A stretch of DNA of 64,000 nucleotides, from contig NZ_JACIEK010000006.1 of NCBI RefSeq assembly GCF_014196835.1, positions 124,001 through 188,000 of the forward strand, written 5' to 3'. Both the position numbers and the translations under genes were made by a program. Source of the DNA: Aureimonas pseudogalii (GTDB lineage Bacteria; Pseudomonadota; Alphaproteobacteria; Rhizobiales; Rhizobiaceae). Below are positions 3,694-23,596 of this stretch, in pieces. The stretch's first letter is position 1; every line of letters starts with the position of its first letter. Under the pieces are notes generated by a model. It had not been told where the DNA came from. It was given only the letters and a program-made list of their open reading frames with translations, and made no database searches.

Positions 3694-4821
3694 ATGCCGC
3701 CGAGGCGTGGCGCACCGCTGGGAGATGACGAACGTGTCGCACGCCTTCGCCTGATCCGCACCGAGAACGTCGGTCCCGTGACCTTCGCCGGCCTGCTGCG
3801 CCGCTTCGGCAGCGCAAGTGCGGCGCTCGATGCGCTTCCGGATCTCGCCGTGCGCGGCGGAACGCGGCATACACCGCGGATCCCCTCGCAGGACACTATC
3901 GACGCGGAACTTGCGCTCGCAGCCCGCTTCGGCGCCCGGTTCGTCTGCTGGGGTGAGCCCGACTACCCTCCGCTGCTGCGCGAAGCCGACGCGGCGCCGC
4001 CCGTTCTCGCCGTCATGGGGGCTCTCGCCCCGTTGCAGCAACCGGCGGTGGCGATCGTCGGCGCCCGCAATGCGTCTGCCGCCGGAGCGCGGCTGACGGC
4101 GATGTTCGCCCGCGAACTCGGCGAAGCCGGTCATGTGATCGTCTCCGGCCTGGCGCGGGGCATCGACACCGCCGCCCATGAGGCCAGCCTGCCCACCGGC
4201 ACGATCGGTGTCTTCGCCGGCGGGCTGGACAAGCCCTATCCGCGGGAGAACAAGGCGTTGATGCGCCGCATCGTGGATGGCGGCGGCTGCCTCGTCACCG
4301 AGATGCCGTTCGGCTGGGAGCCGCGCGCCGCCGACTTTCCCCGCCGCAACCGGGTGGTCGTCGGTCTGGCGGCGGGCGTCCTCGTGGTCGAGGCGGCGCT
4401 GCGTTCGGGTTCGCTCATCAGCGCGCGCCTCGCCGGCGAACTCGGCCGCCTCGTCTTCGCGGTGCCGGGCTCGCCGCTCGACCCGCGCGCCGCCGGCACG
4501 AACAGGCTGCTGAAGGACGGCGCGACGTTGACGACCGAGACCGCCGACATTCTGGAAGCGCTGTCGCCGCTCGATCCGCGCGCGCGCCGCTCGCATCCTG
4601 CGCCGGTGGAGGACGAAATCGCCGACGAGCCGGACCACGAGCCTGCGGATCGCGACCGGCGTCGCATTCTCGACGCCCTCGGCGCGACGCCCACGAGCCT
4701 CGAGGACATTCTGGCGCAGAGCGGCGCGGACCCGGCCGAGCTGCAGACCGTACTCCTCGAACTCGACCTCGCCGGACGGCTCGAGCGCCATGCCGGTGGC
4801 CGTGTCGCACTGCTTTCCTAG
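3694..4821 (+). CDS. dprA: DNA-processing protein DprA (Smf)
   Basis: DprA binds incoming single-stranded DNA and loads RecA during natural transformation. The 375-residue product has a short N-terminal helical region, then the Rossmann-like DprA core with VAIVGARNAS (about residue 112), VSGLARGIDTAAH, the RRNRVVVGLA segment and SGSLISARLA, and a C-terminal winged-helix-like region (about 315-375). It begins two bases after plsY and ends 141 bases before topA. This gene is common in bacteria not known to be competent, so presence alone does not prove transformation. Confidence 0.95.
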   Translation: MPPRRGAPLGDDERVARLRLIRTENVGPVTFAGLLRRFGSASAALDALPDLAVRGGTRHTPRIPSQDTIDAELALAARFGARFVCWGEPDYPPLLREADAAPPVLAVMGALAPLQQPAVAIVGARNASAAGARLTAMFARELGEAGHVIVSGLARGIDTAAHEASLPTGTIGVFAGGLDKPYPRENKALMRRIVDGGGCLVTEMPFGWEPRAADFPRRNRVVVGLAAGVLVVEAALRSGSLISARLAGELGRLVFAVPGSPLDPRAAGTNRLLKDGATLTTETADILEALSPLDPRARRSHPAPVEDEIADEPDHEPADRDRRRILDALGATPTSLEDILAQSGADPAELQTVLLELDLAGRLERHAGGRVALLS

Positions 4822-12793: not shown

Positions 12794-13169
12794 GCGTCTC
12801 GCGTCTCCGTGGATCTCGGCCGCACGACGATACGTCGGCACCACGTTCACAAACGAAAACGAGCCGCGGCTCAGCGGGAGCGCGGCTTCGAAGATCGACT
12901 TGGGGAAATGGCGCACAGGTTAGCGAAGTGGCCGGCCGGCAGGCCAATCGCGGCGCGAGGACACCGCATATGACCGGCTGCCGACCGACCGCCCCACGGG
13001 ACCCAGGAGATGCGGCGGACCTGAGCATTCCATGGGGAAACTGAAACCAGGTGCTTGCCTGTGTCTCGAACCCTTCGAATCGACGTTCGCCGAGAATCGG
13101 TTTCAGCGCAACGTCGAAGCCTCAAATTGCCTGTGATCTTTTCATGAATGGTTAAGGGCGGGCGCCCGT
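12794..13169. other. Non-coding stretch between rpmG and pleD
   Basis: No convincing gene is seen here. It contains a perfect 12-base palindrome (12861-12872) and a nested inverted-repeat structure at 13041-13106, listed separately. The short frames crossing it lack ribosome-binding sites and family features. Confidence 0.5.
13041..13106. other. Nested inverted repeats, possible three-way-junction RNA
   Basis: CTGAAACC (13041-13048) is complementary to GGTTTCAG (13099-13106). Between them lie two further arms: CAGG/CCTG (13048-13051 with 13058-13061) and TCTCG/CGAGA (about 13063-13067 with 13091-13095). Together they could fold as an outer stem with two arms. The strand of any transcript is unclear; on the minus strand it would lie in the 3' region of pleD. 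Confidence 0.3.
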
Positions 13170-16042: not shown

Positions 16043-19513
<3,471 letters not shown>

Positions 19514-19673: not shown

Positions 19674-19757
19674 TCAGACGATATGAAGCAGCAGGGCAAA
19701 GCCGGCGACGAAGACCGACACTGCCGTGAGAGAGGCAACTTCCTTGAGAATCAGCAT
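19674..19757 (-). CDS. 27-residue predicted membrane peptide under LexA control (SidA-like candidate)
   Basis: A short frame starting at ATG 19757 encodes MLILKEVASLTAV followed by a hydrophobic run ending LLLHIV. It is essentially one transmembrane helix with a short charged N-terminus. A GGAG ribosome-binding site lies six bases before the ATG. Upstream are two perfect GAAC-N7-GAAC LexA boxes and a TTGACA -35 element. Caulobacter SidA, a 29-residue SOS-induced inner-membrane division inhibitor, has the same size, topology and control, but I cannot claim sequence homology. It lies between lolD and dnaE. The coding call rests on the ribosome-binding site, hydrophobicity and SOS boxes. Confidence 0.6.
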   Translation of the reverse strand: MLILKEVASLTAVSVFVAGFALLLHIV

Positions 19758-19760
19758 GTC

Positions 19761-19775
19761 GTTCTCCGTTCGTTC
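19761..19775 (-). promoter_or_regulatory. LexA box, start-proximal
   Basis: A perfect alphaproteobacterial LexA site, GAAC-N7-GAAC on the minus strand. It covers the ribosome-binding site of the 27-residue gene and lies 20 bases (two helical turns) downstream of the second box. Confidence 0.7.
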
Positions 19776-19780
19776 CTTGC

Positions 19781-19795
19781 GTTCTCTTTTTGTTC
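19781..19795 (-). promoter_or_regulatory. LexA box overlapping the promoter -10 region
   Basis: A second perfect GAAC-N7-GAAC site with an A-rich spacer. It lies 15 bases downstream of the TTGACA -35 element, so bound LexA would cover the -10 region. Confidence 0.75.
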
Positions 19796-19815
19796 CAGAA
19801 CGAGGCCGGTGTCAA
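19787..19815 (-). promoter_or_regulatory. SOS promoter of the 27-residue peptide gene
   Basis: TTGACA on the minus strand (19810-19815) is followed after 17 bases by an A-rich hexamer (19787-19792) that lies inside a LexA box. The -35 matches the consensus exactly and the -10 is weak. Confidence 0.5.
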
Positions 19816-19895: not shown

Positions 19896-20588
19896 TCAGG
19901 CGACGATGTGATCGACGATCTTGCCGTCCCGGAGCGTCACCGCTCTGTCCATGCGCCGCGCCAGATCATGGTTGTGGGTGGCGATCAGCGCGGCCACGCC
20001 GGACTGGCGCACGAGCGCGGTCATTGCGTCGAACACGTAGCTCGACGTCGTCGGATCGAGGTTTCCGGTCGGCTCGTCGGCGAGGAGAACGTATGGGTTG
20101 TTGGCCACCGCGCGGGCGATGGCGACCCGCTGCTGCTCGCCGCCCGACAGCTCGGACGGGCGGTGGCGTACGCGCGGGCCGAGCCGCATGTAGTCGAGCA
20201 GCTCGCGTGCCCGCTCTGCCGCCACCTTGTGCGTCAGACCGCGAATCATCTGCGGCAGCATGACGTTTTCGAGCGCCGAGAACTCCGGCAGGAGATGGTG
20301 GAACTGGTAGACGAAGCCGATCGTGTTGCGCCGCATATCGGTGCGGCCGGAATCGTCCAGCGCGCCGCAAGAAGCCCCGTTGATCACGACGTCGCCGGCA
20401 TCGGGCTTTTCGAGAAGGCCGGCGATGTGAAGCAGTGTCGACTTGCCGGCACCCGAAGGCGCGACGAGTGCCACCATCTCGCCGGCGTCGATGCGCATGT
20501 CGGCGCGGTCGAGAATCGTCAGGCGTGATTCGCCCTGCACGTAATGGCGCTCGACCTGGTCGAGGCGAAGAGCAATGGTCTCGGTCAT
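19896..20588 (-). CDS. lolD: Lipoprotein-releasing ABC transporter ATPase LolD
   Basis: ATPase of the LolCDE machine that extracts lipoproteins from the inner membrane. The 230 residues carry Walker [10 protein letters not shown] (43-51), with Ala in place of the first Gly, the signature LSGGEQQR, Walker B VLLADEP and the switch histidine in ATHNHDLA. The ATG overlaps the stop of the permease gene as ATGA, so the pair is coupled. Confidence 0.95.
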
Positions 20589-23211: not shown

Positions 23212-23449
23212 GGAGACCTACGAAATGGGAACGCGAAAGGGTCGGCTCGGAAACGATAAGGGGCTTCTTAACCGTTCGGGACCGGCAAGGAAAGGAACCG
23301 TCGGTCGGCCGTACGAGGACGGAGCCGACGCTCCGCCGAGACCACCACTGTCGGCTGTAGAAATATGAGGCGTCGATGCCATAAAAACGTCACCGAAGCC
23401 GCGAATCGGGTCGACAACCCCGGCGTTTCCGTCTTAGGGTCCGGTCGTC

Positions 23450-23596
23450 AAACAGCGTCGGAACGACGTAGAATGCGGTCGATCTTGTCTGGGAGGACGC
23501 GGTCTTCGGCGCGCAACAAGCGCAGCCCCGGACAAGTCCGGTGGAAGATCCGGATCGACCATCTCGAATGCGGGGCGCGAGCCCCGCATTTTTTTT
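23450..23596 (+). ncRNA. Unidentified structured small RNA with terminator
   Basis: This 432-base gap between proS and the DUF1467 gene has no convincing coding frame, but the plus strand can form an ordered series of stems. They are a 5' hairpin CGTCG-GAA-CGACG (23456-23468); an outer stem GGTCGATC/GATCGACC (23477-23484 with 23553-23560); an inner ten-pair stem (23484-23493 with 23527-23536) closing a GCGC-AACAA-GCGC hairpin; then a strong terminator. A possible promoter is TCGACA (23411-23416) with TTAGGG (23434-23439) at 17-base spacing. It does not carry the conserved cores of SRP RNA or tmRNA. 6S RNA or a rhizobial trans-acting sRNA are possibilities I cannot test here. Confidence 0.55.
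23567..23596 (+). terminator. Strong Rho-independent terminator, plus strand
   Basis: A ten-pair stem AATGCGGGGC/GCCCCGCATT with a GCGA tetraloop is followed by a run of eight T residues. The T run exists only in the plus direction, where no protein gene precedes it, so it marks the end of a non-coding transcript. Confidence 0.88.

Follow-up and report, generated by a model that had tools for sequence, protein, structure and literature searches.

A candidate LexA-controlled membrane micropeptide between lolD and dnaE in Aureimonas pseudogalii and its relatives

The micropeptide gene and its LexA boxes

In this study, we analyzed a 64,000-nucleotide stretch of the Aureimonas pseudogalii genome (contig NZ_JACIEK010000006.1, positions 124,001 to 188,000; hereafter the window) and, within it, a 27-codon open reading frame (ORF) between lolD and dnaE that is predicted to encode a LexA-controlled, single-helix membrane micropeptide. 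A sequence-only reading of the window had proposed a tiny gene with a GGAG ribosome-binding site, a TTGACA -35 element, and two perfect GAAC-N7-GAAC boxes 20 bp apart (start to start), lying on the same strand as its two neighbors, and each of these features was confirmed (Table 1). The gap from the end of lolD to the peptide start codon is 138 bp, and that from the peptide stop to the dnaE start is 160 bp. The Kyte-Doolittle maximum of the peptide is 2.3 over 17 residues, a value that stands for a predicted helix only.

Table 1. Features of the lolD-dnaE interval, in coordinates of the window
Feature	Coordinates	Strand	Remarks
Micropeptide ORF MLILKEVASLTAVSVFVAGFALLLHIV	19674..19757	-	27 residues, ATG start; predicted single membrane helix
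Promoter LexA box GAACAAAAAGAGAAC	19781..19795	-	Exact GAAC-N7-GAAC, over the expected -10 region
Second LexA box GAACGAACGGAGAAC	19761..19775	-	Exact GAAC-N7-GAAC, covers the ribosome-binding site
-35 element TTGACA	19810..19815	-	Read from the sequence
Ribosome-binding site GGAG	19764..19767	-	Read from the sequence; six bases 5' of the ATG
lolD (ABC transporter ATPase)	19896..20588	-	Upstream neighbor; an ABC transporter ATP-binding protein is annotated at the equivalent place in Sinorhizobium meliloti
dnaE (DNA polymerase III alpha)	16043..19513	-	Downstream neighbor; dnaE is annotated at the equivalent place in S. meliloti

Lone exact boxes are unremarkable in this window and genome. The window holds four, versus a mean of 2.2 in shuffled sequence (at least four occurred in 20 of 100 shuffles), and the whole genome holds 154, with 47 matches to a reversed control pattern. 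The earlier claim that two exact boxes are unlikely to stand together by chance nevertheless held: the exact pair at 20-bp spacing occurs once in the 5.0-Mb assembly, and the three other pair matches, found in a scan that allowed mismatches, each carry one or two of them. The motif suits A. pseudogalii, since the genome's own lexA carries GAACACAAACGGAAC just 5' of its start. A strict sigma-70 scan called no promoter at the locus, and the -10 sequence beneath the box is poor.

Conservation of the peptide, its operator, and its place

Distribution and codon changes together indicate that the 27-codon ORF is a real gene family. With tblastn, the peptide was matched in all 20 other genomes of the genus at an E value of 1 or less, two of the matches being weak. 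With a profile, 320 of the 394 genomes in the window's taxonomic family gave a match (E ≤ 0.001; 89 of 109 genera), as did 61 of the 397 genomes in the order (E ≤ 0.01), 19 of the 61 belonging to the window's own family; the profile (A5) was built without loci L029, L095, and L099, so that the order, family, and weak-genome counts lean slightly toward loci with a box. Evidence for coding comes from 40 disjoint close pairs, in which single-base codon changes were synonymous in 194 cases versus 72 nonsynonymous, where the absence of selection would predict a synonymous share of 25% (p about 2e-59), and in which changes at codon positions 1, 2, and 3 numbered 99, 25, and 257. Conservation of the codons with synonymous change had been proposed beforehand as support for the gene, and it was found.

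No in-frame stop occurs in 145 core sequences, whereas 84 and 56 of them have stops in frames +1 and +2, respectively. In the three antisense frames, stops interrupt 21, 10, and 120 cores, and because two of these are mostly open too, an open frame alone is no proof of coding. The pattern that defines the cores demands both an Asp or Glu and a Phe, making their invariance there a matter of construction; we therefore used a 72-row alignment instead, and one Phe and one Asp/Glu are present in all 72 rows. Four loci outside the core pattern are absent from the codon set. L029, L095, and L099, which have neither box nor dnaE and whose profile matches we take as chance, are counted in the denominators of 105 and 118 loci used below and left out of the codon set and of the 102-locus set. 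Loci from close relatives are not independent. The genome that contributes L095 (G336) has several profile matches, and the one that was read is a longer frame with no LexA box, probably a chance match.

Searches of NCBIfam and Pfam with three members returned no family above cut-off (one NCBIfam match, at an E value of 0.15, is far below it). A composed query matched nothing in phage records, and its only matches among plasmid records were to five large Sinorhizobium and Shinella replicons; the window peptide itself had no match among the plasmid records. A pattern scan of genome contigs returned five stretches, none of them from the order.

An exact LexA box lies upstream of the peptide in 140 of 154 homologous loci, made up of 97 of 105 loci, 17 of 19 further loci in which the box is within 80 bp, and 26 of 30 weaker family members, against a background rate of 22 exact boxes in 790,178 positions. 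The 14 misses comprise seven loci with a one-mismatch box (L019, L076, L094, L113, L116, L179, and L182), five with no box (L029, L095, L099, L181, and L187), L148, whose box is 162 bp away, and L155, which was read at the wrong offset and entered as a miss. Among the 42 order matches outside the window's family, 10 besides L155 were read, and all but L148 (9 of 10) have an exact box within 80 bp. The exact box is usually 35 to 60 bp from the ATG, and TTGAC or a variant stands at most 30 nt before it in 87 loci, most commonly at 9 or 20 nt (20 nt in the window). These counts indicate that the promoter is probably LexA controlled and that this predicted control is conserved.

The sequence-only reading had expected both boxes to be conserved, and here its expectation held in part: the promoter box is general, while a second exact box 18 to 20 bp away is confined to 15 of 102 loci, with a spacing of 20 bp in the window only and of 18 or 19 bp in the others. 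Since so few loci have such a pair, comparison of the loci indicates that the promoter box is the ancient part and the second box a local elaboration. Other arrangements are a single box with a mismatched neighbor 11 bp away (44 of 102) and two boxes overlapping at 11 bp (14 of 102). In two Sinorhizobium loci (L061, positions 3946-3980, and L063), three GAAC half-sites follow one another at 11-bp steps, forming two overlapping LexA boxes.

The place of the gene is also conserved. dnaE is downstream on the same strand in 108 of 118 loci, lolD is upstream in 78, and both neighbors are present in 75, counts that were taken with limited flanking DNA per locus. In S. meliloti, an equivalent ORF with boxes lies between lolD and dnaE, and the order in strain Ak57 is proline--tRNA ligase, lipoprotein-releasing permease, ATP-binding protein, peptide, and dnaE. 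The S. meliloti gene table has no feature over the ORF; the table is incomplete, so "unannotated" is provisional. The peptide is at the equivalent place in Shinella sp. PSBB067 as well. The Ak57 and PSBB067 records are labelled plasmids, yet they are 3.7 and 4.6 Mb long. Seven loci (L107, L110, L120, L138, L139, L145, and L157) keep the box and the peptide with no dnaE within 1.5 to 2.5 kb. In some of these, other genes sit downstream.

The locus in the rest of the class

Elsewhere in the class we looked by place, reading 129 regions upstream of dnaE (29 + 100) among 238 class genomes with a DnaE match; of these regions, L196 and L217 were read at the wrong offset and L277 offered only 250 bp. 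A forward exact box was present in 18 of the 129, 16 of them outside the order and 2 in a family of the same order (f42). In all 18, the box is followed by a small ORF with a hydrophobic stretch (17 by filter and L193 by eye), a rate for which the baseline at arbitrary boxes was not measured, and in some of these ORFs GTG or TTG is the sole start codon available or more than one start is possible. lolD is upstream in 15 of the 18. Within the set of 100 loci, 19 had a box in one orientation or the other, and 1 had a match to a reversed-motif control. Several of the class peptides have a charged pair and then small residues near the start, and 6 of 15 have profile scores that exceed 99% of their own shuffles. 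Judged by gene order and boxes, other orders of the class share the lolD-peptide-dnaE arrangement. For some of the peptides, homology across this distance is likely, and for the remainder it is unproved.

Two genomes with the locus, G903 and G1006, gave matches to the holdfast protein HfaD below cut-off, and among 14 control genomes only Caulobacter was positive, which hints that the two belong near Caulobacter. Nine other loci (L229, L235, L239, L240, L262, L269, L271, L285, and L289) have a GTTC-N7-GTTC box 58 to 90 bp before the DnaE match; because no peptide fits between box and dnaE, dnaE itself may be LexA controlled in those taxa. Three Sphingomonadaceae contigs carry repeated GAAC half-sites (L126, 6611-6650; L127, 7707-7746; L128, 2280-2319) some 150 bp upstream of a longer, unrelated ORF whose start is hydrophobic (L126 and L128 were read), which is possibly another SOS-controlled membrane protein.

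Relation to SidA and proposed function

SidA of Caulobacter crescentus is described as a 29-residue peptide of the inner membrane that inhibits division in the SOS response and interacts with FtsW (PMC4211646). The locus numbers in the literature fit a sidA gene next to dnaE in that species: sidA is CCNA_02004 (PMC10769358), CCNA_02005 is a nucleoside hydrolase (PMC3667746), dnaE and recN are CC1926 and CC1983 in the older numbering (PMC1839093), and recN is CCNA_02062 in the newer (PMC12700426). The offset of about 79 between the two series would put dnaE no more than a few genes from sidA, with CCNA_02003 as the simplest candidate, by numbering rather than by a map. dnaE is also listed among the genes reported as SOS regulated in C. 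crescentus (PMC3323433), which would fit a box that is owned by a small gene ahead of dnaE. The sequence-only reading had called the window peptide an analogue candidate for SidA. That interpretation is supported, and the label may be too weak, given that the lolD-peptide-dnaE order recurs in other orders and that the numbering of sidA agrees with it. By this deduced place, SidA may be a positional relative; common descent is possible but not proved. The two peptides are alike in size, in demonstrated or predicted LexA control, and in being easily missed, and they may share a place beside dnaE; they differ in that division inhibition was demonstrated for SidA and is a prediction for the window peptide.

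We consider it fairly probable that the window gene is a LexA-repressed member of a lolD-dnaE family encoding a single-helix inner-membrane micropeptide that arrests division as SidA does. Its coding capacity, its conservation, the LexA operator, the hydrophobic helix, and its position are supported by sequence; induction, membrane insertion, target, and division arrest we infer, as follows. LexA bound over the -10 region would hold the gene off and, in the window, would also lie over the DNA of the ribosome-binding site. Damage would lead to RecA-driven cleavage of LexA and to production of an mRNA with a short leader, and the peptide would then insert in the membrane. As SidA does in Caulobacter, it might keep the FtsW/FtsI/FtsN septum machinery inactive until the damage is repaired. 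The features of the peptide are a hydrophobic helix, a charged pair near the N terminus, small residues, and a conserved Phe, and the helix is not amphipathic (hydrophobic moment, shuffle p 0.81); for these reasons, helix-helix docking suits it better than pore formation.

Two further inhibitors resemble the peptide in part. DidA of C. crescentus is a DNA-damage-induced single-helix membrane protein that acts on the FtsW/I/N complex (PMC4211646), but it has 71 residues and is SOS independent, being induced through DriD, while the window peptide has LexA boxes. YneA of Bacillus subtilis is an SOS-induced single-helix inhibitor that interacts with FtsW; its membrane helix is reported as necessary and sufficient for reaching the divisome and was modelled on FtsW, and low-confidence models in the same paper place SidA on FtsW too (PMC13396833). 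Unlike the window peptide, which is almost all helix, YneA has a LysM domain that is needed for blocking synthesis in the paper's model (PMC13396833).

Several results weigh against a SidA-like role in a family of this breadth. Conserved positions are not significantly clustered on one face of the helix (p 0.07, a suggestive value). Among 51 family genomes with a weak or no earlier match, 12 had no peptide match at an E value of 0.1 or less, and 8 of these have lexA; one genome (G051) has a peptide match and no lexA above cut-off. The other 4 of the 12 lack a lexA match as well as the peptide, which counts in favor of the proposed role. In the class sample, none of 288 other genomes has a profile match, and 9 of the 15 class peptides fail to beat 99% of their own shuffles, L276 among them being a sister of one that does.

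Of the possible functions, we rank division arrest as the most probable, followed by a depolarizing toxin or some other target, with a dnaE leader in last place. A TisB- or DinQ-like peptide that depolarizes the membrane, slows growth, and is restrained by an antisense RNA in a type I toxin-antitoxin pair is unlikely in our judgment, even though these Escherichia coli peptides are SOS-induced single helices and DinQ, at 27 residues, matches in size and LexA control and depolarizes the membrane when overexpressed (PMC3567139). The transcripts of dinQ and tisB are multiple or processed and are accompanied by antisense RNAs (PMC3567139), whereas the box here, usually 35 to 60 bp from the ATG, leaves little leader if transcription starts at the boxed promoter. 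The family also shows no amphipathic pattern, and its constant place and wide single-copy conservation are unlike those of a mobile toxin. Rfam has no family at the peptide locus, and no search aimed at antisense RNA was made. We give similarly low odds to an SOS membrane peptide that acts on a transporter, a protease, or the envelope stress machinery and has no role in division. No computed result points to FtsW, FtsI, or FtsN, the link to them being SidA's size, control, and place, but the position shared with the inferred sidA locus speaks against a target of this other kind.

It is still less probable that the ORF is a leader controlling dnaE, with the LexA promoter being dnaE's own and the peptide incidental or an attenuator. 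The frequency with which dnaE comes next and its reported SOS regulation in C. crescentus would suit such a leader, as would a simple terminator scan, which found none between peptide and dnaE. Selection at the amino acid level argues against it, as do the seven loci that keep box and peptide with no dnaE within 1.5 to 2.5 kb, because of which we regard the peptide as independent of dnaE. Read-through into dnaE alongside a peptide function is compatible with these results. Chance, in the form of an unselected ORF next to chance boxes, is hardly credible: lone boxes are common and two antisense frames mostly open, but the conservation of ORF, box, and place, with the codon test, is decisive against it.

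In the literature searched, from listings and passages, we recognized no report of a lolD-dnaE peptide and met no rhizobial gene named for arrest of division in the SOS response; the main text of an S. meliloti small-proteome paper contains neither "SOS" nor "LexA." The chances seem to us about even that lolD-peptide-dnaE is an ancient SOS micropeptide locus of the Alphaproteobacteria with SidA as its local member, and that in rhizobia and related bacteria the peptide serves as the SOS division inhibitor. The very small ORF, and a LexA box that was attributed to dnaE, would explain why such a locus was overlooked; we suggest that a box assigned to dnaE belongs to the small gene ahead of it. 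SidA may then cease to stand alone and become part of a family, the conserved residues of which could guide work on FtsW binding, and linkage with dnaE may allow a single LexA-controlled transcript to tie division arrest to replicase supply. S. meliloti offers one small locus to delete or overexpress.

Elsewhere in the window, Rfam matches mark two small RNAs, ar9 (23448-23595, plus strand) and EcpR1 (Atu_C6; 12925-13039, minus strand), the latter having been described as a modulator of the rhizobial cell cycle.
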